A DNA stretch of 64,000 nt from Prosthecobacter sp. (lineage in GTDB: Bacteria; Verrucomicrobiota; Verrucomicrobiia; Verrucomicrobiales; Verrucomicrobiaceae). The notes below the pieces were generated by a model. The model was not told the DNA's origin. It did no database searches and saw nothing but the letters and a program-made list of their open reading frames with translations. The stretch spans positions 1 through 64,000 of the forward strand of contig JAIPJY010000006.1 in assembly GCA_021733925.1 (NCBI GenBank), in the 5' to 3' direction. The position numbers and the translations under genes are program-made. Below, in pieces: positions 27,364 to 43,674 of the stretch (positions within the stretch are counted from its first letter, which is position 1; each line of letters begins with the position of its first letter).

Positions 27364-28089
27364 ATGCCCGCCAATGCTCTCATTTCCGCCGCCCAGACCC
27401 TGCGTGAATCCCTGCGCCCACTGCGCTTCGCCGCGCCGGTCGAATATGTCTATCAGCCGCTCGACTACGCGTGGGCACCGCATGAGGCCTACCTGCGCCG
27501 TTTTGGCAGCAGCAAAAAACGTGTCGTCCTGGTGGGGATGAACCCCGGCCCCTTTGGCATGACGCAGACCGGCGTCCCTTTCGGTGAAATCGCCGCAGTG
27601 CGCGACTGGATGGGCATTCAGGAACCCGTGGGCAAACCGGAACGCGAGCACCCGAAGCGTCCCGTTGTCGGCTTTGACTGCGCGAATTCCGAAGTCAGCG
27701 GACGACGCCTCTGGGGACTGTTTGCTCAGAGGTTCGGCAAGGCGGAAGCCTTCTTCAAAGACCACTTCGTCGCCAACTACTGCCCGCTGGTGTTCATTGA
27801 GGCCAGCGGTCGCAATCACACGCCCGACAAACTTCCCGCCGCCGAAACCACCGCGATGGAAGCCGCCTGCGATCTGCATCTGCAAGCCGTCATCTCCGCC
27901 CTCCAGCCCGAGTGGGTGATCGGAGTCGGAGCCTTCGCTGAAGCGCGGGCCCTGCGTGCCAAAGAAACCATGAACGGCAGCTTCAAAACCGGCCGCGTGC
28001 TTCACCCCAGTCCCGCCAGCCCCGCTGCGAATCGCGACTGGGCAGGGGCGGCCACAAAACAGCTCGTGAAGCTGGGGATTTGGGAGTGA
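27364..28089 (+). CDS. SMUG1-type uracil-DNA glycosylase
   Basis: A 241-residue base-excision repair enzyme of UDG family 3. Motif 1 is VLVGMNPGPFGMTQTGVPFG (about residues 57-76), with Asn instead of the catalytic Asp of Ung, as in SMUG1; motif 2 is VLHPSPASPAANRDW near the C-terminus (His expected to contact the uracil). Removes uracil and oxidised pyrimidines such as hydroxymethyluracil. SMUG1 is patchy in bacteria, so horizontal transfer in its history is likely. Divergent from the protease gene over a 90-base gap. Confidence 0.92.
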   Translation: MPANALISAAQTLRESLRPLRFAAPVEYVYQPLDYAWAPHEAYLRRFGSSKKRVVLVGMNPGPFGMTQTGVPFGEIAAVRDWMGIQEPVGKPEREHPKRPVVGFDCANSEVSGRRLWGLFAQRFGKAEAFFKDHFVANYCPLVFIEASGRNHTPDKLPAAETTAMEAACDLHLQAVISALQPEWVIGVGAFAEARALRAKETMNGSFKTGRVLHPSPASPAANRDWAGAATKQLVKLGIWE

Positions 28090-28183
28090 GAGCCTGAAAG
28101 TCTTTTAATACTCTCGCGCTTTTCCAGGCAGCAGCAGCCAGCCGCTGTTGCAACAACTTCACAGCAGGAGCGTTCAAGGAAGT

Positions 28184-29257
28184 ATGAACAAGATTCGTAC
28201 CATCACGCCCCTGCTCGTGATGATGGCCGCTTTAACGACTGGCCATGCAGAGAACAAGGTGCAACCGCCATCTGCCAAGGCCGCACCTACGTCGAATCCC
28301 GCTGAGGCGGCCAAGAACGCCCCGGCGAAAAAGGCTGAGCCAGTGAAACCGCCGAGCGAAGCAGAACTCCGTGTTGGAATCACGAAAAGTCTCGGGTTCC
28401 TCGCCAGGGAAGGGGAGGAATGGATGACCGCAAAAAACTGCAATGGCTGCCACCACCTGCCTGAGATGCTCTGGAGCCATCGCGAGGCGAGGCAGCGTGG
28501 GTTTGCCGTGGATGCCAAAAAGTACGACGAATGGCTCGAGTGGGCGGTCGAGCGTGCGACGGACAAACGGCCGGGACTGGAAGAGGCCGCCCTGATGATT
28601 TTAGCCCTGCCAGCGCGACCCGCGCCAGAACTGACGAAACTACTCGCCGCTGAACAAAAACCGGACGGTTCATGGAAACCCGCCGGTCAGTTCTCCGGCA
28701 TGCAGAAACGCGGTGCGGGTGATGCGCAGGCCAACACTCTACGGCTCAACCTGATCGCCCTCGCCACGCCGCAGCCTGCGGCGGCTGAGTCAGATGGGGC
28801 ACACACCAAGGCTGCCGCGATGCTGCAAAAGAAAGGCACGCCCACCACCATGGAGTCCCTCGTCTTCCGCACGCTCTATGCACGCCGCTTTGGCAAACAT
28901 GAGGAGGCTTCAGCTTTGCTCAAAGACATTGTCAAACGGCAGCGCGGCGATGGTGGCTGGAGCTACATCCTCGGCGAAAACATGAGCGATGTGCTCGCCA
29001 CCGGACTGGCGCTGTACGTCTTGCAGGAAAATGCCGCTGATCCACCCACGGCGAATGCCATCGCCCGTGCCCAGCATTGGCTGCTCCAGACTCAGCGCGA
29101 GGATGGCAGCTGGCCCATCGACATCACCCACATCAGCCAGATCGACCGCAGCGGCCCAGGCAAGGCGAAATCCTTCAAAGACGCCACCGGCATCTACACC
29201 TACTGGGGCACTTCATGGGCCACCCTGGGCCTGCTGCATGGAGTGCCGGTGAAGTAG
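28184..29257 (+). CDS. Squalene-cyclase-like secreted protein with a CxxCH haem motif
   Basis: A 357-residue exported protein: signal peptide MNKIRTITPLLVMMAALTTGHA, then a Pro/Ala/Lys-rich linker (28-60). A single haem-c motif CNGCH (residues 86-90) is followed by an alpha/alpha-barrel-like region with QW-type repeats (PDGSWKPAG, GDGGWSYILG, EDGSWPIDI, GTSWATLGLL), as in prenyltransferase/squalene cyclase families. The cyclase DxDD motif is missing, so it is not a hopene synthase. ATG 28184 is the start; an upstream GTG/TTG start would add 12 poor residues. Role unknown; perhaps an electron-transfer protein of the cell envelope. Confidence 0.8.
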   Translation: MNKIRTITPLLVMMAALTTGHAENKVQPPSAKAAPTSNPAEAAKNAPAKKAEPVKPPSEAELRVGITKSLGFLAREGEEWMTAKNCNGCHHLPEMLWSHREARQRGFAVDAKKYDEWLEWAVERATDKRPGLEEAALMILALPARPAPELTKLLAAEQKPDGSWKPAGQFSGMQKRGAGDAQANTLRLNLIALATPQPAAAESDGAHTKAAAMLQKKGTPTTMESLVFRTLYARRFGKHEEASALLKDIVKRQRGDGGWSYILGENMSDVLATGLALYVLQENAADPPTANAIARAQHWLLQTQREDGSWPIDITHISQIDRSGPGKAKSFKDATGIYTYWGTSWATLGLLHGVPVK

Positions 29258-29315
29258 CCCACGCTCTCGGTCAGTGCTTGCCGCGTGCAAAACCATCGCC
29301 TACTTCTTGGGTCTT

Positions 29316-29645
29316 ATGTCAGCCATCCCAGTCGAATTTTCCGGAGTCACCGCCGTCACGAAAGCAAACGTCTATTTTGACGGCAAGGTCGTCAGCCACA
29401 GCATTTTGTTCCCTGACGGCAGCAAGAAAACCCTCGGGCTCATCTATCCCGGTGATTTTCATTTCGGCACCGCCAAGGCTGAGCGCATGGAGATCGTCGC
29501 AGGCGACTGCACTGTGAAGCTCGATGGCAGCGAAGGCAAAACGACCTGCACAGGCGGCCAGTTCTTCGATGTTCCCGCCAACAGCGGCTTTGACATCACG
29601 GTCAGCTCCGGCATTTGCGAATACATCTGTTCGTTCCTGGATTGA
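29316..29645 (+). CDS. ppnP: Pyrimidine/purine nucleoside phosphorylase PpnP
   Basis: A 109-residue cupin-fold protein (DUF1255). Family stretches VTAVTKANVYFDGKVVSHSI, LFPDGSKKTLGLIYPGDFHF and AERMEIVAGDC are all present. PpnP phosphorolyses diverse nucleosides to free base and ribose-1-phosphate, cytoplasmic. Chosen start MSAIPVEF at 29316, as other upstream residues do not match the family. Followed by small hairpins in front of kup. Confidence 0.93.
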   Translation: MSAIPVEFSGVTAVTKANVYFDGKVVSHSILFPDGSKKTLGLIYPGDFHFGTAKAERMEIVAGDCTVKLDGSEGKTTCTGGQFFDVPANSGFDITVSSGICEYICSFLD

Positions 29646-29676
29646 TCCATCCGCAGCTGCTGCGGCAGTCGATCTC

Positions 29677-29692
29677 TTCACACATTCTTAAC
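29677..29692 (+). promoter_or_regulatory. Candidate KdpE-like box upstream of kup
   Basis: TTCACACATTCTTAAC, 58 bases before the kup start codon. It matches the box at 39681 at 14 of 16 positions and the one at 31706 at 12 of 16 (consensus TTYACRCWTTYTTRAC). The T-rich KdpE operator of E. coli (TTTATACTTTTTTTAC, recalled from the literature) fits 12-13 of 16 positions of the family. Followed by CGCC as at the other two sites. Two small hairpins sit around it (29651-29665, 29695-29707). Confidence 0.5.
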
Positions 29693-29750
29693 TCGCCCCT
29701 CAGGGGCATTCACTGGAGGCCGGGAAGTTTCCGGTGAACATCACGCCGTC

Positions 29751-31697
29751 ATGAGTGACCCAACAGACAAGACCGGCCATCCCAAGCTTTCCACCACCAC
29801 CCTCGTCATCGCGGCGCTGGGGGTGGTCTTCGGCGACATCGGCACAAGCCCGATCTACACGCTCAAGGAATGCTTCAGCCCGCAAAGCCCGCATCACGTG
29901 GCTGCGACGCATGAGAATCTGCTGGGGGTCGTCTCGCTGGTGCTGTGGGCGCTGATCGTGCTCATCTGCATCAAGTACCTCGTCTTCATTCTGCGTGCGG
30001 ACAACAAAGGCGAGGGCGGCGTGCTCTCGCTCATGGCGCTGGCGTCGCATGGCATGTCGGAGGCGCTGAAACGCCGCACGGTGATCGTGCTGCTGGGCCT
30101 GTTTGGCGCGGCGCTCCTGTTTGGTGATGGCATCATCACTCCTGCCATTTCCGTGCTCAGCGCCATCGAAGGCCTCAAGGATGGGGGATTGCTCGGCAAG
30201 CCGCCGACGGAGTTGGGTGAGGCATTGCGGTGGGATGTGCACATGGAGTGGCTCATCATGGGCATCACCATCGTCATACTCATCGTGCTGTTTTCAGTGC
30301 AGTACCTCGGCACGGCACGTATGGGGCGCTTTTTTGGTCCGATCACCGGCCTGTGGTTCGTGACACTCGCGGTCCTCGGCGTGTCGCACTTGATTCAAGG
30401 TCCGGAGATCCTCGCGGCATTCAATCCCTGGCACGGCTGGCACTTTCTGACTGTCGGCGGCCACAAGTCGTTTGTGATCCTCGGTAGCGTGTTTCTGGCT
30501 GTCACGGGCGGCGAGGCGCTGTATGCCGACATGGGCCATTTTGGTGCCGGGCCGATTCGACGGGGCTGGTTTTCTCTTGTGCTGCCGGCGCTGGCATTGA
30601 ACTACCTCGGCCAGGGGGCGCTGCTCATGCAGCAGCCTGAGCTGGCGCATGCACCTTTCTTCCAGATGGCCCCGGCGTGGGCCACACTGCCGCTCGTGCT
30701 GCTTGCCACCGCAGCGACGGTGATCGCTTCGCAGGCGCTGATCACCGGCACCTACTCGCTGACGCTCAGCGCCGTGCAGCTGGGCTACCTGCCGCGCCTC
30801 AGCATCCGCCACACGTCGGAACATGCTCAGGGGCAGATCTACATCCCGCTGGTGAACTGGGTCCTCATGCTGGCCTGTCTCAGCCTGGTGCTGGCCTTCC
30901 GCAATTCTACCAGTCTCGCCGCTGCGTATGGCGTGGCCGTGACGATGACCATGCTCATCACCACCTTCCTGTTTTATTTTGCCGCGCGTCACCTGTGGCA
31001 GTGGTCTCTGCTCAAGACGCTGCCGCTCTGCCTGTTGTTTGCCGCGATCGAGATCGCCTTTCTCAGCGCCAACCTGGTGAAATTCTTCGATGGCGGCTGG
31101 TTCCCGCTCGTGGTTGGTGTGATCATTTTCACACTCATGACGACGTGGGCCACGGGCCGCCGCCTGGTGCGTGCCTCCATGGAGAAAAGCGCGCTCAGCC
31201 AGGAGACACTCTGCCAGAGCATCAAGCGCAGCCCGCCAGTCACCGTGCCCGGCACCGCCATTTTCATGTCGAGCACCAGCGGGCGCGCACCCATCGCCCT
31301 GCTGCACAGTTTGAAACACTACCGCGCCATTCATGAACGCGTGATCTTCATGACATTGATCACCGAGGACGAGCCCTGGGTGCCGCCGGGCCGCCGTGTG
31401 GAAGTCGAAAAGATTGCCGAAGGTTTCTGGCGCGTGACTGGCCGTTACGGATTCATGCAAAAGCCCAATGTGCCGCGCCTTCTGCACCACTGTGGCAATC
31501 AAGGCCTCGAAGTCATGGCTGAGAAGGCAACCTTTTTCCTGGGCCGCGAAATCATCGTCCCGAGTCCGAAACCAGGCATGGTGAGATGGCGCGAGCATCT
31601 CTTCGCCTTTGCCAGCAAGCTGGCGCAGCAGCCCGCGACCTATTTCCAGATTCCCTTGGGCCGGGTGATCGAGCTGGGGCAGCAGGTGGAGATTTAA
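29751..31697 (+). CDS. kup: KUP family potassium uptake protein
   Basis: K+/H+ symporter of the inner membrane (KUP/HAK/KT family), 648 residues with about 12 helices and a C-terminal cytosolic domain from about residue 470. The signature GDIGTSPIYTLKECF is at residues about 27-41; EGGVLSLMALASHG and the GDGIITPAISVLSAIEGL loop follow. A constitutive, low-affinity system in E. coli; here it stands directly before the kdp genes and carries the same promoter box as they do, so it is probably in one K+ regulon. Start ATG 29751. Confidence 0.96.
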   Translation: MSDPTDKTGHPKLSTTTLVIAALGVVFGDIGTSPIYTLKECFSPQSPHHVAATHENLLGVVSLVLWALIVLICIKYLVFILRADNKGEGGVLSLMALASHGMSEALKRRTVIVLLGLFGAALLFGDGIITPAISVLSAIEGLKDGGLLGKPPTELGEALRWDVHMEWLIMGITIVILIVLFSVQYLGTARMGRFFGPITGLWFVTLAVLGVSHLIQGPEILAAFNPWHGWHFLTVGGHKSFVILGSVFLAVTGGEALYADMGHFGAGPIRRGWFSLVLPALALNYLGQGALLMQQPELAHAPFFQMAPAWATLPLVLLATAATVIASQALITGTYSLTLSAVQLGYLPRLSIRHTSEHAQGQIYIPLVNWVLMLACLSLVLAFRNSTSLAAAYGVAVTMTMLITTFLFYFAARHLWQWSLLKTLPLCLLFAAIEIAFLSANLVKFFDGGWFPLVVGVIIFTLMTTWATGRRLVRASMEKSALSQETLCQSIKRSPPVTVPGTAIFMSSTSGRAPIALLHSLKHYRAIHERVIFMTLITEDEPWVPPGRRVEVEKIAEGFWRVTGRYGFMQKPNVPRLLHHCGNQGLEVMAEKATFFLGREIIVPSPKPGMVRWREHLFAFASKLAQQPATYFQIPLGRVIELGQQVEI

Positions 31698-31705
31698 GCT
31701 CCCCT

Positions 31706-31721
31706 TTTACGCATTTTTGAC
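31706..31721 (+). promoter_or_regulatory. Candidate KdpE-like box upstream of the kdpF unit
   Basis: TTTACGCATTTTTGAC, followed by GCCGC, 76 bases before the microprotein start at 31798 and 173 before kdpF. Spacing and sequence match the boxes before kup and before the second kdpD-like gene. Only the shared pattern supports it; the -10 region could not be identified with certainty. Confidence 0.55.
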
Positions 31722-31797
31722 GCCGCAAGCCCCGCCGTTAACTCGGCAGGATCGGGTGAGCCTGCATCTTGGCGGTGGACAAACGTCCCACCACGCC

Positions 31798-31881
31798 ATG
31801 AACGACCTCATCTACCTCGGCCTCACAGCGGCCTGTTTCTTTCTCGCCGCGCTCTACACGCGAGGCTGCGAAACCCTTTAG
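31798..31881 (+). CDS. KdpF-adjacent 27-residue membrane microprotein
   Basis: MNDLIYLGLTAACFFLAALY followed by TRGCETL: one hydrophobic helix (residues 4-20) and a short polar tail with Cys24. It lies 13 bases before kdpF, in the same leader. Small proteins of this look (xxYLGLTAxxFxLxxLYxRxCExL) are found before kdpF in other bacteria as I recall, without a described function. An accessory or stabilising subunit of the K+ pump is the obvious guess. ATG 31798, TAG stop. Confidence 0.7.
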   Translation: MNDLIYLGLTAACFFLAALYTRGCETL

Positions 31882-31894
31882 CCACACCCGCACC

Positions 31895-31978
31895 ATGGAA
31901 ACCATCCTCGTCGGGCTGATCGCCCTTGCCCTGCTCGCCTACCTCATGGTGGCGATGCTGCGTCCTGAAAAATTCTAA
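31895..31978 (+). CDS. kdpF: K+-transporting ATPase subunit KdpF
   Basis: A 27-residue single-helix protein, METILVGLIALALLAYLMVA with the C-terminal MLRPEKF, the typical KdpF ending (x-YxxxxLxRPExF). KdpF stabilises the KdpABC complex in the inner membrane. Second cistron of the kdp operon: 12 bases before kdpA. Confidence 0.9.
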   Translation: METILVGLIALALLAYLMVAMLRPEKF

Positions 31979-31990
31979 CTCGAAATCATC

Positions 31991-33703
31991 ATGCACTCCA
32001 CTGACTGGCTGCAATTCGCCCTCTACCTGGGCATTCTCACACTCATCACCAAGCCGATGGGTCTGTATCTCATGCAGGTGCTCGATGCTGACGGGCGCAC
32101 CTGGATCGACCCGGTGCTCAAACCGGTGGAACGGCTCACCTACAAGCTGATTGGCATTGATCCAAAGCGCGAGCAAACATGGCAGCAGTACACCTTTGCC
32201 ATGCTGGCCTTCAGCCTTGTGGGCGTGGTGTTCACTTATGCGATCCTGCGCTTGCAGGATGTGCTTCCGCTCAATCCGCAGGGGCTGCCGGCGTTGTGTC
32301 ATCACCTGGCCTTCAACACTGCGGTCAGTTTCACGACCAACACCAACTGGCAGAGCTACGGCGGCGAGTCTACGATGTCCTATTTCTCGCAGATGGTGGG
32401 GCTGACGTTTCATAACTTCGTCTCCGCCGCCGTCGGCATTGGCATCGCAGCCGCGCTGGTGCGGGGCATTGCGCGCAGTTCGGTGAAGACGGTCGGCAGC
32501 TTCTGGACAGATCTCGTGCGTGTCACTTATTACCTTCTGCTGCCGATCTGCCTTGTCTTTGCGATCTTCCTCGTCTCGCAGGGAATGATCCAAAACTTTG
32601 ACAGCTACACCAAGGTGAAGACGCTGGAAGGTGCGGAGCAGGTGATCGCCCAGGGGCCAATGGCCTCGCAGGTGGCGATTAAAATGCTCGGCACCAATGG
32701 CGGCGGCTTCATGAACGCGAATGCCTCGCATCCCTTCGAAAATCCGACGCCGCTCTCGAATTTCATCCAGATGCTCTCGATTTTCTCCATCGGCAGCGGG
32801 CTGACCTACTACCTCGGTCGCATGGTCAAAAATCAGGCGCATGGCTGGGCCGTGTGGGCTGCCATGATGGTGCTGTTTGTCGGCGGGGTGCTCGTGTGCG
32901 CGCACTTTGAGGCTGCCGGCAATCCGATCCATCAGCAGCTCGGCGTAGCCGCTGCGGATGGCAACATGGAGGGCAAGGAGGTGCGCTTCGGCATCTTCAA
33001 CTCGTCGCTGTTTGCCACCATCACTACCGCAGCGTCCTGCGGGGCGGTGAATTCGATGCATGATTCGTTCACCTCCATCGGCGGACTGGTGCCGCTGTTT
33101 ATGATTGAGCTGGGTGAAGTCGTCATCGGTGGTGTGGGCGCGGGTTTGTATGGCATGCTGGTGTTTGTCATCCTCGCTGTCTTCATCGCGGGACTCATGG
33201 TGGGTCGCACACCGGAGTACCTGGGCAAGAAGATCCAGGCCAGGGAGGTCAAGCTCTGCATGCTGACGCTGCTGGTGCTCACGCTCAGCATCCTCGGCTT
33301 CACCGCTTGGGCCTGTGTGAGCGACTGGGGCGTGGCTGGTCTGAACAACAGCGGCCCGCATGGCCTCAGCGAGATGCTGTACGCCTACAGCTCCGCCACT
33401 GGAAACAACGGCAGTGCCTTTGCAGGTCTCACAGCCAACACACCCTGGTACAACACCACGCTCGGCATCGCCATGTTCATCGGCCGTTTCCTCATGATCG
33501 TTCCCATCATGGCGCTGGCAGGATCGCTTGCCGGAAAACAAGCCGTGCCGCCCAGCGCTGGCACGTTCCCAGTCAACGGTGCCACGTTCACCGTGCTGCT
33601 CATCGGTACCGTGCTGCTCATCGGCGCGCTCAATTTTCTCCCCGCTCTCGCCCTCGGTCCCATCGTTGAGCACTTCCTCACGGCCCAGGGCAGGCTGTTC
33701 TAA
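31991..33703 (+). CDS. kdpA: K+-transporting ATPase subunit KdpA
   Basis: Channel-like K+ binding and translocating subunit, 570 residues, ten membrane segments. Selectivity-filter-like loops are seen in TTNTNWQSYGGESTMSYF (about residue 112), GTNGGGFMNANASHPF (about residue 232), the third in AASCGAVNSMHDSFTS (about residue 345) and the fourth in TGNNGSAFAGL (about 465). Start ATG at 31991. Operon kdpF-A-B-C-D-E with gaps of 4-25 bases. Confidence 0.97.
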   Translation: MHSTDWLQFALYLGILTLITKPMGLYLMQVLDADGRTWIDPVLKPVERLTYKLIGIDPKREQTWQQYTFAMLAFSLVGVVFTYAILRLQDVLPLNPQGLPALCHHLAFNTAVSFTTNTNWQSYGGESTMSYFSQMVGLTFHNFVSAAVGIGIAAALVRGIARSSVKTVGSFWTDLVRVTYYLLLPICLVFAIFLVSQGMIQNFDSYTKVKTLEGAEQVIAQGPMASQVAIKMLGTNGGGFMNANASHPFENPTPLSNFIQMLSIFSIGSGLTYYLGRMVKNQAHGWAVWAAMMVLFVGGVLVCAHFEAAGNPIHQQLGVAAADGNMEGKEVRFGIFNSSLFATITTAASCGAVNSMHDSFTSIGGLVPLFMIELGEVVIGGVGAGLYGMLVFVILAVFIAGLMVGRTPEYLGKKIQAREVKLCMLTLLVLTLSILGFTAWACVSDWGVAGLNNSGPHGLSEMLYAYSSATGNNGSAFAGLTANTPWYNTTLGIAMFIGRFLMIVPIMALAGSLAGKQAVPPSAGTFPVNGATFTVLLIGTVLLIGALNFLPALALGPIVEHFLTAQGRLF

Positions 33704-33715
33704 ATCCTCACCCCC

Positions 33716-35743
33716 ATGTACATGTCCCACAAACCCACATCTCTCTTTGATGCTTCCATTCTCGCTCCGGCCATCGGCGAGTCGTTCAAGAAGCTCGACC
33801 CGCGCCTGATGGTGAAGAACCCCGTCATGTTCGTCACGCTCGTCGGCGCGGTGCTCACCACGGTGAGCATCTTCACCGCCAAGGCAGACCACGGCTTCAT
33901 CACCCAGCTCAGCATCTGGCTCTGGTTCACCGTGCTCTTCGCCAACTTTGCCGAAGCCGTCGCGGAAGGACGCGGCAAAGCCCAGGCGGCCAGCCTGCGT
34001 GCCGCTCGCAAGGACACCATCGCACGACGCTTAAAAAACGGCATCGAAACCAGCGTGCCTGCTCCCGCTCTTGAAAAAGGTGATCTCGTGGTCTGCGAAA
34101 CCGGCGATGTGATCCCTGCCGATGGTGAAGTGATCGAAGGCATTGCCAGTGTCGATGAAGCCGCCATCACTGGTGAATCCGCTCCCGTCATCCGCGAGAG
34201 CGGTGGTGACCGCAGCGCCGTCACCGGCGGCACGCGGGTGATCAGCGACCGCATCGTCATTCGCATCACCTCGGAAAAGGGCAACACCTTCATCGATCGC
34301 ATGATCTCGATGGTCGAAGGCGCACAACGCCAGAAAACGCCGAACGAAATCGCGCTGACCATTCTGCTGTCCGCGATGACGCTCATCTTCCTTCTGGTAT
34401 GCATCACGCTGCGGCCCTTTGGCATCTATTCGGGCGTCGAATTCTCCACACCGGTGCTCATCGCTCTGCTCGTGTGCCTGATTCCAACCACCATCGGCGG
34501 ATTGCTCAGCGCCATCGGCATCAGTGGCATTGACCGGCTCATCCGCCGCAATGTCATGGCCACCAGCGGGCGTGCCGTTGAGGCCGCAGGAGACATCGAT
34601 GTGCTCCTGCTCGACAAAACCGGCACCATCACCATCGGCAATCGCATGGCGTCTGATTTCCGTCCCTCTCCCGGCATCACCGAGCAGCAGCTCGCCGACG
34701 CCGTGCAGCTCGCCTCTCTGGCCGATGAAACGCCCGAAGGCCGCAGCATTGTGGTGCTCGCCAAGGAAAAGTTCAACATCCGCGGCCGCGAACTCGCCGC
34801 ACCCCACGCCACCTTCATTCACTTCACGGCGCAGACCCGCATGAGCGGTGTTGATCTTGATGGTCGCAGCATTCGCAAAGGGGCGGCGGATTCCATCAAA
34901 GCCCACATTGAAAATCTCGGTGGTGTTTATCCGCCCGAAGTTGCCGGAATTGTCGAGGCCGCATCCCGAGCCGGACGCACACCGCTAGTCGTGTGCGAGG
35001 GCAGCAGCGTGCTCGGTGTTGTCGAACTCAAGGACATGGTCAAAGGCGGCATCAAGGAGCGCTTTGCGCAGCTTCGCAAAATGGGCATCCGCACCGTCAT
35101 GATCACCGGTGACAATCCCATGACCGCCGCCGCCATTGCCGCCGAGGCAGGTGTCGATGACTTCATGGCCCAGGCCACGCCCGAGGACAAACTGCGCCGC
35201 ATCCGCGCCGAGCAGGCCGAAGGTCATCTCGTCGCCATGACGGGTGACGGTACGAATGACGCGCCTGCTCTGGCCCAGGCCGATGTCGGCGTCGCCATGA
35301 ACACAGGCACGCAGGCCGCACGCGAAGCGGGGAACATGGTCGATCTCGACAGCAATCCGACGAAGCTCATCGAGATCGTTGAGATCGGCAAGCAGCTACT
35401 CATGACGCGCGGCTCGCTCACCACCTTCAGCATCGCCAACGACATCGCCAAATACTTCGCCATCATCCCGGCGATGCTCATGGTGACTTTTCCTGCGATC
35501 AGTCCGCTGAACATCATGGGCCTGGCCAGTCCGCAGAGCGCGATCCTGAGTGCCGTCATCTTCAATGCGCTCGTCATCATCGCCCTCATTCCGCTCGCGC
35601 TCAAAGGCGTGCCATATCGCGCCGCCGGAGCCGCCGCCGTGCTGCAGCGAAACCTGCTCATCTACGGCCTCGGCGGTTTGCTTGTCCCCTTCATCGGCAT
35701 CAAGGCCATTGATGTCATCGTTGCCACCCTTCACCTCGCTTAA
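33716..35743 (+). CDS. kdpB: K+-transporting P-type ATPase subunit KdpB
   Basis: Catalytic subunit of the pump, 675 residues. The phosphorylated Asp is in [13 protein letters not shown] (Asp300), the actuator loop in [12 protein letters not shown], nucleotide-binding residues in the following domain ([20 protein letters not shown]) and hinge [20 protein letters not shown]. The first ATG at 33716 gives MYMSHKPTS; the second at 33722 is equally possible. Twelve bases after kdpA. Confidence 0.97.
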
Positions 35744-35747
35744 CATC

Positions 35748-36320
35748 ATGAACTCCATCCTTATATCCCTTCGCGCCACATGCGTGCTCGCGGTTGTCAC
35801 CTGCGGCGTGTACCCGCTCATTGTCACCGGCATTGCCCAGGCCGCCTTCAAAGACAAAGCTCACGGCAGCCTCACCATGGATAAGGACGGCATCGTGCGA
35901 GGTTCGGCTGTGATTGGTCAGAACTTCACTGCTGCTCAGTACTTCCACCCGCGCCCCAGCACCGCCGGTGCCGGATATGACGCCGCCAACTCCAGCGGCA
36001 GCAATCTTGGCCCCACCTCGCAAAAGCTGAATGACGCGATCAAAGACCGCATCGCAGCTTACCGCGCCGAAAACGGTCTTGGCGACAAAGAGGCGATTCC
36101 CGCCGATGCCGTCACCGCCTCCGGCAGCGGTCTCGATCCGCACATCAGCTTGAAGAACGCCGAGCTGCAAACTGTCCGCGTCGCGAAGGTGCGCAATCTC
36201 AGCGTCGAGAAGGTCAAAGAAATGACCGTCGCCAGCATCGACCCGGCTGGCTTCGGCGTTCTGGGTGGTGCCGGCGTGAACGTATTGAAGTTGAATCTGA
36301 GTCTCGATGCCTTGAAGTAA
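35748..36320 (+). CDS. kdpC: K+-transporting ATPase subunit KdpC
   Basis: A 190-residue protein with one N-terminal membrane helix (about residues 8-28, TCVLAVVTCGVYPLIVTGIAQ) and a periplasmic domain with the KdpC signatures VIGQNFTAAQYFHPRPSTAG, SSGSNLGPTSQKL and SGLDPHISLKNAELQ. Affinity/assembly subunit of the pump. The ATG at 35748 is chosen because the longer frame would overlap kdpB by 200 bases; gap to kdpB is four bases. Confidence 0.96.
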   Translation: MNSILISLRATCVLAVVTCGVYPLIVTGIAQAAFKDKAHGSLTMDKDGIVRGSAVIGQNFTAAQYFHPRPSTAGAGYDAANSSGSNLGPTSQKLNDAIKDRIAAYRAENGLGDKEAIPADAVTASGSGLDPHISLKNAELQTVRVAKVRNLSVEKVKEMTVASIDPAGFGVLGGAGVNVLKLNLSLDALK

Positions 36321-36332
36321 CCGCCGCAGGCC

Positions 36333-38984
36333 ATGAATGACGACCACCGTCCCGACCCGGATGCACTGCTCGCGCAGGTGCAGCTGGCGGATGCCGTGTC
36401 CAAATCTGGCCGGCTTCACATCTTCCTCGGCATGTGCCCGGGCGTCGGCAAAACTTATGCGATGCTGCAAACCGCGCGGCAGCGGGTCAAGGAGGGCGTG
36501 GAGGTGCTCGTTGGCATTGTCGAGACGCATGGCAGATCGGAAACAGCGGCCCTGCTCGAAGGCATGCGTGTGCTGCCGCGCCGGAAGCTCGAACATCGCG
36601 GCTTCACCTTGGAGGAGTTCGACATCGATGCCGTGCTGGCGCAACGCCCAAGGCTAGTGCTTGTGGATGAACTCGCACACACCAACGCGCCGGGTTCACG
36701 CCATGCGAAGCGCTACCAGGATGTACTGGAGCTCATCGACATGGGCATTGATGTTTACACCACGCTCAACGTCCAGCACATTGACAGCCAGGTGGACATC
36801 GTGCGGCAGATCAGCGGCGTGGCGATTCAAGAAACCGTGCCCGACTCCATTCTTGACCGTGCGCATGAGATTCAGCTCATCGACCTCAGCGTTGAAAAAC
36901 TGCTGGAGCGCATGGCCGATGGCAAAGTCTATCTCGGCGAGCGCGCGGAACAGGCGGTGACCGGCTTCTTCAAGACAGGCAATCTCACCGCGCTGCGGGA
37001 GCTGGCCCTACGTTTCACCGCCGAGCGGGTGGACCGTGATCTCGAAGACATCCGCCGTTCCAGGCGTGTCAGCAGTGCGTGGAAAACCAATGCGCGACTG
37101 CTGGTCGGCGTGGGGCCGAGCCCGTATGCTGAAAGCCTCATCCGCTGGACGCGGCGCGCCGCCACGCGGCTGAACTGCCCCTGGCTCGTGGTGTGGGTCG
37201 AAGGCTCGGGGGTGCTCACACCGGTCGAGCAGGAGCGGCTCACGCGCTCGCTCGGCCTTGCGCGCAAGCTTGGCGGCGAGGTCGTCTCCGTGACCGGTGA
37301 AAATGTCGCCGAGTCGCTGCTGCAGGCAGCCCGTGAGCGCAACGTCTCGCAGATTGTCGTGGGAAAACCTGACAAGCCGGTGTGGTGGCGCCAGTCGTTT
37401 GCCGATCAGATCATCCTCGGCAGTGGCGACATCGACGTGTGTGTTGTGCGGCCGCTGGCCGCTGCAGATAAAACTTCTGGCACCCCATTGCACGGAGTGG
37501 AATCGGCATCGGTCATTGGCGAGTACAGCTGGGTGCTCGTCACCGTGTTCACCATTGCCAGCGTGTGCTGGGGCATCGTGCCGTACACGGGCTACATGGT
37601 TGTCGCGCTCGTGTTCCTGCTGGCGGTCGTGCTGGCGGCAATGCGTTTCAGCCGGGGCCCTGTGCTCGTCCTGGCGGCGCTCAGCGCGCTGTGCTGGAAC
37701 TACTTTTTCATCCCGCCTCAGTTCACCTTTTTCATCAACAAGGCCGAGGACTGGATCATGTTCGGCATGTTTTTCATCGTGGCGCTCAGCATGGGCAGCC
37801 TCACCAGCCGGCTGCGGATGCGTGAAGTGGCCGAACGCCGCCGCGCTCGCCAGACCGGAGCCCTGCTGCGGGTGACGCAGAGCGCCGCGCTCGCCGCCGA
37901 GCCTGCCAAGGGCCTCGCCGAGGCGCTGCGCAGCATCAATGAACTCCTGCATGCGCAAACCGCGCTCATCGTGCGTGAAAACGACCGCTCGTTGCCAAAG
38001 GCGGCGCATCAGGCCAGCACCTTCCAGCCGAGCCGCAAGGAATGGGGCGTGGTGGCCTGGAGCTATGAGAACAAGCAGTGTGCGGGCCGCTTCACCGACA
38101 CGCTGCCCGAGTCCGAGGCAACGTGGTTTCCGCTGCAAACCGCCACCGCCACGATGGGCGTGCTCGGCCTGCAGTTTGAGCGCGAAACGCGGCTTGATTT
38201 CGCCACGCGGCAGATGATCGAGGCTTTTGCGCTGCAGCTTGCGCTCGTTTTGGAAAAAGAGCATTTCATTCAAGCCGTCAGCCATGCCGAGGTTCTCGCG
38301 CAGTCGGAGAAACTGCACCGCACCCTGCTCGACAGCGTTTCGCATGAATTGAAAACACCCATCGCCGTCATCAGCGCCGCACTGGAAGGGATGGATGGTT
38401 CGCAAAGTCCCTACATCACCGAGATCACCACCGCCACGCAGCGGCTGCAGCGCGTGGTGGACAGCCTGCTGCAAATGACCCGGCTCGAATCCGACGTGCT
38501 GAAGCCCTGCCTCGACTGGTGCGATGTGCGTGATGTCATCGCCGCCGCGCAGCATGCTATCGGCGCGGCGCTGGCAACCCACGTGGTGAGGCTTCACCTG
38601 GCCGATGACTTTCCGCTGCTGAAGCTGGATCACGCTCTGCTCACCCAGGCTGTGGCCAACATTCTGCACAATGCCGCCATCTACACTCCCGCAGGCACCG
38701 CCATCGACATCAGCGCCACGTTGAGTGACCAGCAGTTCCGCTTGGGCATTCGTGATCATGGCCCCGGCCTGCCCGCAGGCACAGAGAAGCGTGTGTTCGA
38801 AAAATTCTATCGTCTGCAGGGCTCACCGGCGGGCGGCACGGGTCTCGGGCTGGCCATCGCACGGGGGTTTGTCCAGGCTCAGGGCGGGGATATCATCGCG
38901 CGGAATCATCCTGACGGCGGCGCTGAGTTCGTGATTGAGATCAATCGCATGGCTGCTTTTGCGCCATCCTTAAAAACCTCCTGA
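36333..38984 (+). CDS. kdpD: Sensor histidine kinase KdpD
   Basis: Full-length K+/turgor sensor, 883 residues. Order: KdpD domain with Walker A GMCPGVGKTYAML (residues 33-45) and DELAHTNAPGSRHAKRYQDV (about 110-129), a Usp domain (about 250-370), four membrane helices of DUF4118 (about 390-500), a GAF domain (about 510-645), then HisKA with His671 (SVSHELKTPIAV) and the ATPase domain with N-box NILHNAAIYT, DHGPGLP and GGTGLGLAIA. It phosphorylates KdpE at low K+ or high osmolarity. Twelve bases after kdpC. Confidence 0.96.
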   Translation: MNDDHRPDPDALLAQVQLADAVSKSGRLHIFLGMCPGVGKTYAMLQTARQRVKEGVEVLVGIVETHGRSETAALLEGMRVLPRRKLEHRGFTLEEFDIDAVLAQRPRLVLVDELAHTNAPGSRHAKRYQDVLELIDMGIDVYTTLNVQHIDSQVDIVRQISGVAIQETVPDSILDRAHEIQLIDLSVEKLLERMADGKVYLGERAEQAVTGFFKTGNLTALRELALRFTAERVDRDLEDIRRSRRVSSAWKTNARLLVGVGPSPYAESLIRWTRRAATRLNCPWLVVWVEGSGVLTPVEQERLTRSLGLARKLGGEVVSVTGENVAESLLQAARERNVSQIVVGKPDKPVWWRQSFADQIILGSGDIDVCVVRPLAAADKTSGTPLHGVESASVIGEYSWVLVTVFTIASVCWGIVPYTGYMVVALVFLLAVVLAAMRFSRGPVLVLAALSALCWNYFFIPPQFTFFINKAEDWIMFGMFFIVALSMGSLTSRLRMREVAERRRARQTGALLRVTQSAALAAEPAKGLAEALRSINELLHAQTALIVRENDRSLPKAAHQASTFQPSRKEWGVVAWSYENKQCAGRFTDTLPESEATWFPLQTATATMGVLGLQFERETRLDFATRQMIEAFALQLALVLEKEHFIQAVSHAEVLAQSEKLHRTLLDSVSHELKTPIAVISAALEGMDGSQSPYITEITTATQRLQRVVDSLLQMTRLESDVLKPCLDWCDVRDVIAAAQHAIGAALATHVVRLHLADDFPLLKLDHALLTQAVANILHNAAIYTPAGTAIDISATLSDQQFRLGIRDHGPGLPAGTEKRVFEKFYRLQGSPAGGTGLGLAIARGFVQAQGGDIIARNHPDGGAEFVIEINRMAAFAPSLKTS

Positions 38985-39009
38985 ACGAATCTGGAGATTC
39001 GTTTTACTT

Positions 39010-39672
39010 ATGAACGCCCTCATCATCGATGACGAAATCCAGATCCGCCGCCTGCTGCGCATGGCGCTGGAGGCGAAGGGCTTCACCGTGAGGGAGGCTG
39101 AGTCAGGCCAGTTGGGTTTGCAGGAGGCCGTCTTCCACAAACCCGACGTCATCCTGCTCGATCTCGGCCTGCCCGACATGGACGGGGTCGAGGTGCTGAA
39201 GCGGCTGCGCGAATGGAGCAGCGTGCCCGTGCTCATCCTCAGTGTGCGTGATCAGGAGGCCGTCAAACTCGCCGCCTTCGATGCCGGGGCCGATGATTAC
39301 GTTTCCAAACCCTTCAGCACTGCGGAGCTCATCGCACGGCTCACCGCGATCCAGCGCCGCCAGGGGGCCCATGACGCAGCCAATCTGCAGCTTGGCCCGC
39401 TCGTGCTTGACCCTGTGCATCACGAGGCGGCACTGGCCGGCCTGCCGCTCAAACTCACACCCACCGAGTATTCGCTGCTCGCTCAGCTTGTGCGCCACGC
39501 CGGAAAAGTCGTGACATTGAAGCAGCTTCTTCGCGCGGTGTGGGGGCCGCAGGCGGAAGAGCAGAGCCATTATCTCCGCGTGTATGCCAATCACCTGCGC
39601 AAAAAGCTCGAAGGCTCCACCTTGGAGATCAAAAACGAGCCGGGGATCGGCTACCGCTTGGAGGAGGCTTGA
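39010..39672 (+). CDS. kdpE: Response regulator KdpE
   Basis: OmpR-family regulator, 220 residues: receiver domain with IIDDE (residues 5-9), phospho-acceptor Asp51 (VILLDLGLPD), Thr/Lys region VSKPFSTAEL, and winged helix with LKLTPTEYSLL, NHLRKKLE and the ending IKNEPGIGYRLEEA. Binds the T-rich operator upstream of the kdp genes when phosphorylated. The following gap holds a matching box and the second kinase. Start ATG 39010, 25 bases after kdpD. Confidence 0.96.
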   Translation: MNALIIDDEIQIRRLLRMALEAKGFTVREAESGQLGLQEAVFHKPDVILLDLGLPDMDGVEVLKRLREWSSVPVLILSVRDQEAVKLAAFDAGADDYVSKPFSTAELIARLTAIQRRQGAHDAANLQLGPLVLDPVHHEAALAGLPLKLTPTEYSLLAQLVRHAGKVVTLKQLLRAVWGPQAEEQSHYLRVYANHLRKKLEGSTLEIKNEPGIGYRLEEA

Positions 39673-39680
39673 GCGCAGCT

Positions 39681-39696
39681 TTTACACTTTCTTAAC
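39681..39696 (+). promoter_or_regulatory. Candidate KdpE-like box upstream of the second kinase gene
   Basis: TTTACACTTTCTTAAC followed by GCCC; it starts nine bases after the kdpE stop and ends 69 bases before the start codon at 39766. Best fit of the three to the E. coli operator (13 of 16 positions by eye) and a 14/16 match to the kup box. It argues that the second sensor pair has its own promoter, controlled by KdpE-type regulators. Confidence 0.55.
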
Positions 39697-39765
39697 GCCC
39701 TGGCTGCGGCTGTTTACTGGCGAGCGGTGCTTTTGCGGTGATGGTGGCTCAAACCAAGACCAACC

Positions 39766-40875
39766 ATGTCTGCCGCCCAGAGAACCAATGTCCAGCCATC
39801 CCCTCCGCCGCTTTCACTGGCGGAGGTGGGGCAGTACAGCTGGGGGCTGACTCTGGTGTTCGTGCTCGCGTCCACTTGCTGGGTGCTGCTGCCTTACACG
39901 GGCTATCTGTTTGCCGCGCTGGTCTTTCTGCTGGCCATCGTGCTGGCAGGCACTCGGTGGAACCGTGGGCCCGTCCTGATGATGGCGGTGGTCAGCGCGC
40001 TGGTCTGGAATTATTTCTTCATCCCGCCGCAGTTCACTCTGCACATCGACAAGCCGCAGGACATGGTGATGTTCAGCCTGTTTTTCATCGTGGCGCTGAG
40101 CATGGGGCATCTCATCACGCGGCTGCGCGCACGCGAGGCGGCGCTGGCGCAGCATCATCAGGAGCGTGAGCACCTGCTGGAACTGAAACACCGCGCCGAG
40201 TTGCTGTCGGAGTCCGAGCGCCTCCACCGCACGCTGCTGGACAGCGTGTCGCATGAGCTGAAAACGCCCATCGCCATCATCCGCACCGCCTTGGATGGCC
40301 TGGGCCTGGAGAACCCTTATGCCCGCGAGATCGAGACCGCCAACCGCCGCCTGCAGCGCATCGTCGAAAGCTTTCTGGAAATGACACGGGTGGAATCCGA
40401 GGCGCTGGAGCCGAAGCCTGACTGGTGCGAGATCGGCGATGTGCTGCATGCCGCCACCGCGCCGATCCAGCAGGAACTGGCCGCACATGCTTTACGCATG
40501 ACATGCGCGACGGAACTGCCGTTGCTGAAACTCGACAGCCGCCTGCTCGCCCAAGTTCTTGGCAATTTGCTGCACAACGCCACGCGCTATGCGCCTGCGG
40601 GCAGCGACATCGAAATCCATGCTGCACTTGTCGGCGATAATCTGCAACTTCGTGTGCGCGATCACGGCCCCGGTCTGCCGCTGGGGGCTGAGGACCAGCT
40701 CTTCGAAAAATTCTACCGCACTCCCGATTCACCCGCAGGCGGCACCGGTCTGGGGCTTGCCATCGCACGTGGCCTGATGCGTGCCATGAAAGGTGACATT
40801 GAAGCGCATACTCATCCCACCGGTGGAGCCGAATTCGTGCTGCACCTTCCCGTGAAAACTCGCAGCGCCGCATGA
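39766..40875 (+). CDS. KdpD-like histidine kinase lacking the KdpD/Usp and GAF domains
   Basis: A 369-residue kinase similar in sequence to the C-terminal half of the KdpD just upstream: VGQYSWGLTLVFVLASTCWV and DUF4118 helices (about 20-120), a short coiled linker replacing GAF (about 125-155), HisKA with His163 (SVSHELKTPIAI) and an ATPase domain (NLLHNATRYAPAGS, DHGPGLP, GGTGLGLAIARG). Missing are the Walker A, KdpD input and Usp domains. It overlaps the next regulator gene by four bases (ATGA). Probably a product of partial duplication of kdpD. What it senses is unknown, perhaps an envelope or membrane signal. Confidence 0.9.
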   Translation: MSAAQRTNVQPSPPPLSLAEVGQYSWGLTLVFVLASTCWVLLPYTGYLFAALVFLLAIVLAGTRWNRGPVLMMAVVSALVWNYFFIPPQFTLHIDKPQDMVMFSLFFIVALSMGHLITRLRAREAALAQHHQEREHLLELKHRAELLSESERLHRTLLDSVSHELKTPIAIIRTALDGLGLENPYAREIETANRRLQRIVESFLEMTRVESEALEPKPDWCEIGDVLHAATAPIQQELAAHALRMTCATELPLLKLDSRLLAQVLGNLLHNATRYAPAGSDIEIHAALVGDNLQLRVRDHGPGLPLGAEDQLFEKFYRTPDSPAGGTGLGLAIARGLMRAMKGDIEAHTHPTGGAEFVLHLPVKTRSAA

Positions 40876-41537
40876 GCAAGGCCCTCATCATCGACGACGA
40901 ACATCAGATGCGCCGTCTGCTGCGCATGGTGCTGGAGTCACGCGGCTACGAGGTCTGTGAGGCTGCCGAAGGCCAGCTCGGCCTGCAGGAGGCCGCATTT
41001 CATCGTCCCGATGTGGTGCTGCTTGACCTTGGACTGCCTGGCCTGAACGGCATTGAGGTGCTGAAGCGGCTTCGCGAGTGGAGCGACGTGCCCGTGCTCA
41101 TCCTCAGCGTGCGTGATCAGGAAACCATCAAGGTCGAGGCCCTGGAAAACGGTGCGGATGATTATGTGACAAAGCCCTTCGGCACCGCCGAACTGCTCGC
41201 CCGTCTCACGGTCATTCAGCGCCGCCGTTTTACGCGCCAGAGCGCCGAGATTGTTGCCGGTGCCTTGAAGCTGGATCTGCTGCATCACGAGGCTTCGCTT
41301 GATGATGCACCTCTCAAACTTACGCCCACCGAGTTCGCACTGCTTAAGGTGCTGGCCGAGCATGCAGGGCGCATCGTCACTCAAAATCAGATCATCAAGC
41401 AGGTATGGGCCGGACAGACCAGCGATCCGAGCGAAGGCCTGCGCGTTCACATCAATCACCTGCGCAAAAAACTCGGCACAACTGGCCCACGCATCGTGAA
41501 CGAACCGGGCATTGGTTACCGATTGGAAGAAGCGTGA
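40872..41537 (+). CDS. Second KdpE-like response regulator
   Basis: OmpR-family regulator, 221 residues; receiver Asp52 (DVVLLDLGLPG), Lys in VTKPFGTAEL, winged helix LKLTPTEFALL and IVNEPGIGYRLEEA ending. Very similar to KdpE above, so the two regulators may recognise the same DNA boxes; differences (HQMRRLLRMV, ENQIIKQVWAG) are mainly in linker and helix surfaces. Translationally coupled to the short kinase. It ends one base before the convergent thioredoxin-protease gene. Confidence 0.94.
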   Translation: MSKALIIDDEHQMRRLLRMVLESRGYEVCEAAEGQLGLQEAAFHRPDVVLLDLGLPGLNGIEVLKRLREWSDVPVLILSVRDQETIKVEALENGADDYVTKPFGTAELLARLTVIQRRRFTRQSAEIVAGALKLDLLHHEASLDDAPLKLTPTEFALLKVLAEHAGRIVTQNQIIKQVWAGQTSDPSEGLRVHINHLRKKLGTTGPRIVNEPGIGYRLEEA

Positions 41538-41538
41538 G

Positions 41539-43674
41539 TCATTGGGGCTTCTTTTCGATCAGTGAAAGTACCACGGAGGCAGGTACCGCCTCGTTCAAGG
41601 TCATGACCGTAGGTGCTGCAGATGACCTGCCAGCGGGCTCCGCAAGCCGGGAAGCACCATACAGCGGCCGGATGCGGGCCACGTGGCCGATCACGTTGCC
41701 ATACTCGTCGAGAATGGCGGAGCCACTGCTGCCCGGCGCCCAGTCTGCGCTGACGTCGATGCGCTGCTGGAATGGACTGGCCGGTTTGCCCGGAATGGCG
41801 GGAGAATGGAGCCGGTTCACCAGACCGGAACTGAAGTGACCGATCACATCGCGGGGATCACTGAAGCAGTACGCGGTATCGCCCACCTGCACGTCGCGGC
41901 TCAAAGCCAGTGGTTTGAGATCCTTGGCTGAAACGCGGATGACGGCGGTGTCTCCGGTTTCGTCTGCGAGGAGCACGGCTTCAATGTTTAGCACGTCGCT
42001 CTCTCCTCGGACGACCACAGGATGGCCAGTTCCAGGCTTCATCGCCACCGGCGCAGCGACGACGTGACGCGCCGTGACGACGACGTCTGGTGCGATAGCA
42101 TAGCCGCCTGCCAGATTGGTGTGCCAGCGATTGCATTTTGTGCATTGATACACCCACCCCACTCGCACATGGGCCTCTGCGGCGCGTTTGGCGATCTCTC
42201 GTCCGCGCAGGGGCGCACTCGCAGGCGGTTCCAGTTTAACTGCGGCGGCGGTGGGGTGATCAAGCAGTGCCTGGAAAGCTTCTGCGGAAGTCAGTCCGTC
42301 TTCAGCGGCCAGTGCCCGTGTGCGAGTCACGAGCGGACTCGGCGAGGTGTCGTCCGCCGGGGTTTTCACCGCCAGCGGAATGCCGGCGGCAGGGACCATA
42401 TCCTTGGGAACATTTTTGCCCAATTTCACCAGCGCGCGAGCCACGGTTCCTCGCAGGGCTTCACCACGCAGATCCACTGAAGTGGCGACGACGAGGCCGG
42501 TGTTGCCGTCGATGAGCCAGCAGGAGGGAATGCCATGCACGCCGTATTGTTTCACGATGTCTCCCTGCCAGCTCCCGCCGTCGCAGATCTGCGGCCAGCT
42601 GATCTTTTTTGATTTCACAAACTCAGGCAGACTGGCCACATCTTCATCATGGTCCAGGCTGATGCCGAGCACGGTGAAGTCGTAGGCGGCAAAATCCTCG
42701 TGCACCCGGGTGAGTTCCGGCAGTTCATGCAGGCACGGGCCGCACCAGGTGGCCCAGAAGTCCAGCAATACCAGTTTGCCTTTGTAATCGTCCGGGAAAC
42801 GCACCGTTTTACCAGCGATGGTTTTGGCCTCAAAGGAAGGGGCCGGTTTGCCAAGATCTGCCTCCTGCGCCTTGCGCTGCTCGGCCACTTTGACTGCCGC
42901 CAGACGATTCTCTCCAAGGCGCATCTGCTCCGGAGTCTTGTCGGAGCGAATGATTTCAAAGCGGGAGCCGTCGGGCGCGAGGTTTTTCGCTTCATACACC
43001 GAGCCTTGCAGCACTAGGGGCTTCATAAATAGAAAGAGCTCGGTTCTGGGATTGATGTGGTGGTCTGAATTCACGTCGATGCACAGCTTGGAATGCTCGG
43101 CGGTGAATTCGCCTGTGGTCGAGTCATCACTCAAAAAGACAGCCAGCTCCTGCCCCCCGATTGAGATTTTTCCAGAGCGGCCATAGTCGCGCCGGTAAAT
43201 GAGTGAGCCCGGCCCGCTGGAAGAACCGTTGCGATAAAAATAAAGGCCCATGTCCTGCGTGGCCTCCGGGTATTTGATCTGCGCCATGGCCTCCCCATGC
43301 CAGGAGATGATCTCACCGATTCCGGAACTGCGGACCGAGAATTCCCATTTCACCTTCGGATCATTGGTCAGATCTCCGTCGCCATTCGCATCCAGCCACA
43401 ACCGCGCTTCTTTCGGGGAGCGTTGGTCGAGAATGAGTCCCAGAAAAGTACGCCCGCTCTTCGGGCCCGTCTCCAGCAAAACATACTGGGGATTCACGAG
43501 TCCTTCGGGAGACTTGACGATCTGAGCGGGCTTCTCAGGTAAAAACCGGCACACCTTGGGCACATGATAATGGGTCTTGGCGTAGAATCCCTGCGGCATC
43601 CATTCCAGACGGACTTCATCGGCCGGAGCGGAGGTCAGAGGCAGCAAACAAAGGCACAGCATGAAAGGTTTCAT
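41539..43674 (-). CDS. Secreted fusion of thioredoxin-like (TlpA) and trypsin-like domains
   Basis: A 711-residue exported protein (leader MKPFMLCLCLLPLTSAPA). Residues about 25-260 are beta-rich with an EF-hand-like WLDANGDGDLTNDP (93-106). Residues 275-420 are a TlpA/ResA-type thioredoxin fold with the active site WCGPC (310-314) and a cis-Pro GIPSCWL (381-387). Residues about 500-700 are a trypsin-like protease: a CxxC pair (511-514, CTKC), His537 (TARHVV), Asp575 (GDTAVI), Ser650 (APGSSGSA). All catalytic residues seem present. Such a fusion is unfamiliar to me. The partners could be a redox-folded cell-surface substrate. Confidence 0.87.
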   Translation of the reverse strand: MKPFMLCLCLLPLTSAPADEVRLEWMPQGFYAKTHYHVPKVCRFLPEKPAQIVKSPEGLVNPQYVLLETGPKSGRTFLGLILDQRSPKEARLWLDANGDGDLTNDPKVKWEFSVRSSGIGEIISWHGEAMAQIKYPEATQDMGLYFYRNGSSSGPGSLIYRRDYGRSGKISIGGQELAVFLSDDSTTGEFTAEHSKLCIDVNSDHHINPRTELFLFMKPLVLQGSVYEAKNLAPDGSRFEIIRSDKTPEQMRLGENRLAAVKVAEQRKAQEADLGKPAPSFEAKTIAGKTVRFPDDYKGKLVLLDFWATWCGPCLHELPELTRVHEDFAAYDFTVLGISLDHDEDVASLPEFVKSKKISWPQICDGGSWQGDIVKQYGVHGIPSCWLIDGNTGLVVATSVDLRGEALRGTVARALVKLGKNVPKDMVPAAGIPLAVKTPADDTSPSPLVTRTRALAAEDGLTSAEAFQALLDHPTAAAVKLEPPASAPLRGREIAKRAAEAHVRVGWVYQCTKCNRWHTNLAGGYAIAPDVVVTARHVVAAPVAMKPGTGHPVVVRGESDVLNIEAVLLADETGDTAVIRVSAKDLKPLALSRDVQVGDTAYCFSDPRDVIGHFSSGLVNRLHSPAIPGKPASPFQQRIDVSADWAPGSSGSAILDEYGNVIGHVARIRPLYGASRLAEPAGRSSAAPTVMTLNEAVPASVVLSLIEKKPQ

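Follow-up and report, generated by a model that had tools for sequence, protein, structure and literature searches.

Here we describe three short boxes in a 64,000-nucleotide stretch of a Prosthecobacter sp. genome (GenBank assembly GCA_021733925.1, contig JAIPJY010000006.1, positions 1 to 64,000 of the forward strand; hereafter the window), which lie ahead of the potassium (K+) transporter gene kup, the genes of the Kdp pump, and kdpD2, the gene of a second and shorter sensor kinase. Most probably they serve as operators of two paralogous response regulators of the KdpE type—KdpE1, which would drive kdp, and the KdpD2/KdpE2 pair, which would drive kup and itself. The evidence comes from sequence comparison within the window, across the genome, and among relatives.

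All three 16-mers are found on the plus strand at 29677, 31706, and 39681, exactly where a sequence-only reading of this DNA had placed them, and they agree pairwise at 12, 12, and 14 of 16 bases (sum 38), as that reading had reported. The distances from box to start codon also fall within its 58–76 bases: 58 base pairs (bp) for kup, 69 bp for kdpD2, and 76 bp for the kdp box, measured to an ATG at 31798 that opens a 27-amino-acid (27-aa) reading frame and not kdpF. No dinucleotide shuffle of the DNA between the genes came up to this likeness at the three places, whether over 16 bp (0/300; best shuffle 35 vs 38) or over 38 bp (0/300; best shuffle 63 vs 69). A degenerate 16-bp pattern has three exact matches in the whole genome (7,315,188 bases), all of them window boxes—partly by construction, because the pattern was built from the same three sites—and one match with one mismatch. 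With up to two mismatches allowed there are 24 matches against 41 for a reversed-pattern control, so that the weaker matches are background; the third element described below was absent from all 17 flanks inspected among the 21 other matches. A 40-bp profile, trained on 39 sites including these three, finds only three places at E <= 10 among the best 150 of 2162 candidates scored in the 7.3-Mb genome, and these are again the window boxes. The genome-wide scan for random matches, which the sequence-only reading had named as a test, is thus favourable.

The conserved element is longer than the 16-bp box. TTNAC half-sites stand at positions 1 and 12, giving an 11-bp period, and a third element, TTNACT, begins at position 33 counted from the box start (+32) in all three window sites (Table 1). 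This spacing is fixed across the family: TTNAC-N6-TTNAC fits 81 of 87 family sites and TTNA[CT]T occurs at +32 in 86, the remaining site reading TTTACA. The matrix that located the sites covered their first 16 bases only, and the third element played no part in finding them. E. coli KdpE binds TTTATA-N5-TTTACA, two 6-bp half-sites with a footprint from -72 to -50 (PMC3264566), and the window boxes show the same 6-5-6 architecture. The E. coli operator quoted by the sequence-only reading is correct: strain MG1655 carries TTTATACTTTTTTTAC upstream of kdpF, and the closeness claimed for the boxes amounts to 11/16 (kup), 12/16 (kdp), and 13/16 (kdpD2) identical bases. Half-sites spaced by 11 bp as in E. 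coli support the prediction that all three boxes are KdpE-type operators. In the E. coli kdp promoter, +32 corresponds by hand count to about -37 to -40, with the letters TTTGCG in contrast to TTNACT here; if E. coli geometry is kept, the third element would lie near -35, and its position and letters suggest a -35-like element. We rejected its reading as a -10 element: a -10 element needs A at its second position, the second letter here is T in 87/87 sites, and E. coli geometry puts the element near -35.

Conservation was followed through 68 Verrucomicrobiaceae genomes, in 33 of which kdpA was found. Thirty-one kdp regions were compared (30 relatives and the window; G035 and G006, with kdpA fragments, were left out), and 26 of their upstream stretches score at least 15 with a matrix made from the three window sites. 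The kup genes form two identity groups—kup1, at least 78% identical to the window Kup (37 genomes), and kup2, at about 41–53%. Upstream of kup1 the box is present in 35 of 37 stretches; three boxes are weaker (13.7–13.9) but have TTCACT in register. It is absent from all 21 kup2 upstream stretches examined, a subset of those in the family (best score 10.4). The Prosthecobacter genome itself has a second kup (46% identical; G000:C100:32833-34707; L022, L083), also without a box. A profile scan of the 68 genomes, with stricter filters and the best 97 candidates scored per genome, gave 81 matches in 47 genomes, of which 32 lie before kup, 27 before kdpF/kdpA, 20 before kdpD2, and 2 elsewhere; 79 thus stand at the same three kinds of promoter. 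Conservation before orthologous kup, kdp, and kdpD2, whose lack the sequence-only reading had counted as refuting, is borne out by these numbers.

Three side observations concern individual relatives. Both matches elsewhere are in G025: a full operator at L066:17131 (G025:C171:44630), near a contig end, with TTAATT as its third element and no downstream gene identified, and a kdp-type box just after kup at G025:C171:31628. In G055 (L153), kup1 is broken by a stop or frameshift; matches to KdpD2 and KdpE2 are present, and its box is among the three weak ones.

That the boxes belong to promoters in general, or resemble one another by chance, earns next to no credence. T-rich motifs are easily found, and matches with up to two mismatches are at background; against this stand the shuffles, the three genome-wide profile matches, the 79 of 81 family matches at the same promoters, and the confinement of the 38-bp element to K+ genes in the scans made. 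Chance and a simple promoter element were rejected on the shuffles, the own-genome scan, and the family-wide scan.

The operators fall into two classes. Boxes of kup and kdpD2 form one, mostly TTYACAC-N-TTCTTAAC with TTYACTGG; boxes of kdp form the other, mostly TTWACGC-N-TTTTTRAC with TTAACT. Leave-one-locus-out matrices over 27 positions assign 87/87 sites to the right class, with single loci dropped and near-copies from sister species staying in training. The proposed regulators differ too. The recognition helix of KdpE2 is nearly invariant: of 34 matches tallied, 29 read SEGLRVHINHLRKK, and the rest, bar one, have few changes. KdpE1, with SHYLRVYANHLRKK and its variants, departs from it at the position that corresponds to Y191 of E. 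coli KdpE. At the counterparts of E. coli Y191, R193, and R200, whose roles are taken from the E. coli study (PMC3264566), KdpE1 retains the same residues. Among the KdpE1 proteins, helix variants such as TAALRVHVNHLRSK are also seen. In a quick tree with long branches flagged, KdpE2 is one clade, with 100 in the Shimodaira–Hasegawa-like approximate likelihood ratio test (SH-aLRT), beside or within the KdpE1s of Verrucomicrobiales.

Which regulator serves kup is best judged from where genes and boxes occur together. KdpD2 was found in 34 family genomes (at most the best 29 candidates scored per genome), all of which have kup1, and the kup box is present in every one (31 strong, 3 weaker). In 19 of these 34, on draft assemblies that are 74–99% complete, neither kdpA nor a KdpD with PF02702 was matched. 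The KdpE1 query gives one match in each of the 19 at E <= 1e-50, with 59–64% identity, and this sole match, adjoining KdpD2, is KdpE2; the kup box is therefore kept where KdpE1 was not found. The converse is seen in G048 and G059, where kup1, kdp, and KdpE1 (92% and 90% identical) are present while a short KdpD2 match and a second KdpE match were not found. Their kdp boxes are intact and neither has an intact kup box: judged by eye, the core is gone from an otherwise alignable leader in G048, and a decayed remnant is readable in G059. The two genomes sit on separate branches of the Kup tree, which makes two separate events, and G048 is sister to G047, which has both systems. D2 was not matched in a third kup1 genome either, G057 (52% complete); the box is present there, and the contig stops at kup. 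The kdp state changes nine times on the best quick Kup tree, a count in which two of six genomes from outside the family (G083 and G298) are scored as having kdpA. Among six independent, well-supported pairs with different kdp states, the kup box stayed the same in 5.7 on average and went in the opposite direction in 0.3. In this comparison the kup-box trait, scored by hand, coincides with the D2 trait throughout the 42 rows, with G057 excluded because of its contig end.

These patterns bear directly on the single regulon of the sequence-only reading, in which one KdpE (KdpE1) controls kdp, kup, and kdpD2–kdpE2. The KdpE half-site pattern is common to all three boxes, the genes form one cluster, and the half-sites are alike enough for cross-binding. 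However, the kup box is kept in the 19 genomes in which searches turned up neither kdpA nor KdpD nor KdpE1, it is lost where only KdpE1 remains, and the operator sub-classes set kup and kdpD2 apart from kdp. A parallel comes from another phylum: Sinorhizobium fredii also has KdpDE, KdpFABC, and Kup in one genome and is K+-responsive, but its KdpE binds the kdpFABC promoter and not the kup or trkA promoters by electrophoretic mobility shift assay (PMC9239096). We consider control by one KdpE improbable. KdpE-type boxes at all three places are supported, and the shared regulator is not; the K+ regulon idea is right in outline, with the assignment most likely to be changed to KdpE1 for kdp and KdpE2 for kup and itself.

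Relatives whose gene order differs show a further regularity. Where kup lies at least 900 bp upstream of kdpD2, or not directly upstream, kdpD2 has its own box in 20/20 loci; where the gap is 231 bp or less it has one in 1/21, the exception being G042 (L163) with a gap of 147 bp. One gap in this set, in L281, was set to 0 because the two matches overlap. Box scores in the 41 loci are disjoint (31 to 52 vs -50 to -30), with a matrix trained on these boxes among others. A box that is present when the kup promoter is distant is the pattern that an autoregulated kup-kdpD2-kdpE2 unit would need.

Under the two-regulator reading, KdpD and KdpE1 would respond to K+ limitation and activate the kdp unit through the operator at 31706. 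The KdpD2/KdpE2 pair would be a duplicate whose sensor lacks the N-terminal half of KdpD; KdpE2 would activate kup through the operator at 29677 and its own genes through that at 39681, giving an autoregulated two-component system dedicated to Kup. Phosphorylated KdpE2 would bind two half-sites (TTNACAC, 11-bp period) just upstream of the -35-like TTNACT. Binding, activation as its direction, low K+ as the signal, and the assignment of regulators are what we infer here, whereas the conservation, fixed spacing, gene linkage, and co-loss of the predicted operators are read from the sequences directly.

Two other arrangements must be weighed against this reading. The kup and kdpD2 boxes could be passive relics of a duplicated kdp control region that no longer work, and KdpE2 does group with KdpE1s from its own order, which would allow the boxes to be copies; but conservation holds for the half-sites and the third element, whereas most of the 16 intervening bp vary, and the kup box has decayed where D2E2 is missing. 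We regard relics as very improbable. Joint control, in which the two regulators share all three boxes in a cross-regulated network, with preferences that differ by degree, overlaps with the two-regulator reading and is a possible but rather unlikely arrangement. It draws on the proximity of all three sites, within about 10 kb in the window, and on the 16-bp cores, which separate the classes imperfectly (81/87 assigned right, 6/87 misassigned); the full element separates all 87, however, and the recognition-helix residues differ.

Several points weigh against separate regulators for kdp and kup. Besides the misassigned cores, the near-copies in training, the 29-candidate depth of the KdpD2 search, and the draft genomes behind the kdp and KdpE1 absences, independent losses of D2E2 number only two (2/2 pairs), so that a sign test cannot reach significance. 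Five of the 31 kdp boxes are weak (L062, L071, L072, L081, and L082; scores 7.5–13.5) and may be misplaced. The misassigned cores include the kdp boxes of L053, L057, and L064, which are kup-like in genomes without a D2 match and so blur the class boundary; the KdpE2 clade groups with the KdpE1s of these three at SH-aLRT 85. No clear -10 was found by eye downstream of the third element, and where a genome has both systems KdpE1 might bind the kup box as well. Our reading assumes activation; in S. fredii, kup decreases when K+ is low and increases in a kdpDE mutant (PMC9239096).

Beyond the family, a search of 386 evenly drawn Verrucomicrobiales genomes (best 5 candidates scored per genome) found KdpD2 in 41, seven of them outside Verrucomicrobiaceae. 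In all seven loci kup stands directly before KdpD2, and the six with enough upstream DNA all have a box before kup, with TTCACTGG or TTTACTGG. A comparable arrangement occurs in Bacteroidota, among the 80 relatives' loci kept from a set of at least that size: three consecutive genes in each of L199, L200, and L201 encode a short kinase resembling KdpD2, a KdpE-like regulator, and Kup, and L198 (Flavobacterium profundi) has the kinase and regulator with TrkH instead of kup. The DUF4118 domain was recognised by Pfam in L198 and L201 and by tblastn coverage in L199 and L200. A TTTATA-N5-TTTAY repeat, sought after inspection of the sequences, lies upstream of the kinase match, no farther off than about 135 bp, in 4/4 loci; when the same 280 bp are shuffled, one turns up in 0.3–2% of cases. 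Further copies stand before the transporter in L198 and L200 and, as a second one, before the kinase in L199; L198 also has a copy on the minus strand downstream of trkH. At +32 the seven plus-strand copies read TTGAAA, TTGATT, TTTATA, TTGCCA, TTGACA, TTATAA, and TTAATG. The Bacteroidota regulators form a clade apart from KdpE2 (SH-aLRT 96), which suggests separate recruitment.

The genes and predicted operators of the window cluster are collected in Table 1.

Table 1. Predicted operators and genes of the K+ cluster in the window.
Feature	Coordinates	Strand	Details
Ppnp-family (pyrimidine/purine nucleoside phosphorylase) gene	29274-29645	+	directly upstream of kup
kup operator (predicted)	29677..29714	+	half-sites TTCAC / TTAAC, 11-bp period (box 29677-29692); third element TTCACT 29709-29714
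kup (kup1 clade), 648 aa	29751..31697	+	TIGR00794 542.8 bits vs cut-off 539.6; PF02705
kdp operator (predicted)	31706..31743	+	box TTTAC / TTGAC 31706-31721; third element TTAACT 31738-31743
27-aa reading frame MNDLIYLGLTAACFFLAALYTRGCETL	31798..31881	+	between kdp operator and kdpF; no Pfam match
kdpF, 27 aa	31895..31978	+	PF09604 38.0 bits vs cut-off 21.2
kdpA	31991..33703	+	TIGR00680
kdpB	33716..35743	+	TIGR01497
kdpC	35748..36320	+	PF02669
kdpD, full length, 883 aa	36333..38984	+	KdpD N-terminal domain, DUF4118, HisKA, HATPase; Usp and GAF under cut-offs
kdpE1, cognate KdpE	39010..39672	+	recognition helix SHYLRVYANHLRKKL
kdpD2 operator (predicted)	39681..39718	+	box TTTAC / TTAAC 39681-39696; third element TTTACT 39713-39718
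kdpD2, short sensor kinase, 369 aa	39766..40875	+	DUF4118-HisKA-HATPase only
kdpE2, KdpE-like response regulator	40872..41537	+	recognition helix SEGLRVHINHLRKKL

Family assignments vary in firmness. Kup scores 690.3 with a second model, PRK10745, under its cut-off of 883. KdpE1 (225.7) and KdpE2 (201.1) lie under the curated PRK10529 cut-off of 325, and KdpE is still the best-scoring family for both. In KdpD2, Pfam finds PF13493, PF00512, and PF02518 over cut-off and does not find the PF02702 KdpD N-terminal domain present in the 883-aa KdpD, which is why KdpD2 is not classed as KdpD; the two proteins are 57% identical over residues 132–361. A ppnp match precedes kup in 13 of the relatives' loci retrieved. 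The membrane-like 27-aa peptide (MNDLIYLG...CETL) is conserved as a reading frame in 28 of 31 family kdp loci (not L068, L072, or L082), and L076 and L077 have a second, shorter, similar frame beside it; the peptide is possibly an extra small Kdp subunit. An Rfam scan of 28000-43000 gave nothing over gathering score, and a riboswitch before kup was rejected, the sole sub-threshold match lying inside kup (25.5 vs 34 bits) with none upstream.

Kup is commonly regarded as a low-affinity transporter that has no dedicated control of its transcription. The operator type itself is familiar: E. coli kdpFABC (kdpFABCBS) has the same direct half-sites upstream of kdpF. Here, unlike in E. coli, the type also stands before kup and before the truncated second sensor pair; in E. 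coli, neither strand of the 236 bp ahead of kup shows such a repeat. PhoB/OmpR-type operators likewise present tandem half-sites to a winged-helix response regulator, and pho boxes have an 11-bp period. The PhoB half-site differs, TGTCA against TTNAC here, with the PhoB letters as quoted in the E. coli KdpE study (PMC3264566). In Geobacter sulfurreducens kup likewise adjoins the kdp cluster, but a riboswitch has been proposed to control it (PMC2700814), in contrast to the Rfam result above. No description of a Kup-dedicated two-component system or of KdpE control of kup was found in the literature search, which covered titles and abstract openings and left most subscription papers outside.

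With somewhat better than even confidence we go further and propose that Kup here, rather than being constitutive, is served by a two-component system of its own, 'KupDE', which would have split from KdpDE by losing the N-terminal half of KdpD and be insulated from the coexisting KdpDE by its diverged operator. A similar truncated pair would have been recruited separately in Bacteroidota to kup or trkH behind TTTATA-type KdpE boxes, making a short DUF4118 kinase, a KdpE-like regulator, and one K+ transporter a recurrent, unnamed K+-sensing module. If KdpD2/KdpE2 drives kup, then a single small module would allow tests of K+-dependent control of Kup, of the minimal K+-sensing part of KdpD, and of the insulation of close regulators. 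KdpD is reported to act in addition as a serine kinase on the Kdp pump (PMC11018627). A regulator of Kup only would not need this activity. In KdpD the serine kinase activity sits in the N-terminal half, and KdpD2 would therefore be a natural experiment on KdpD domain function.

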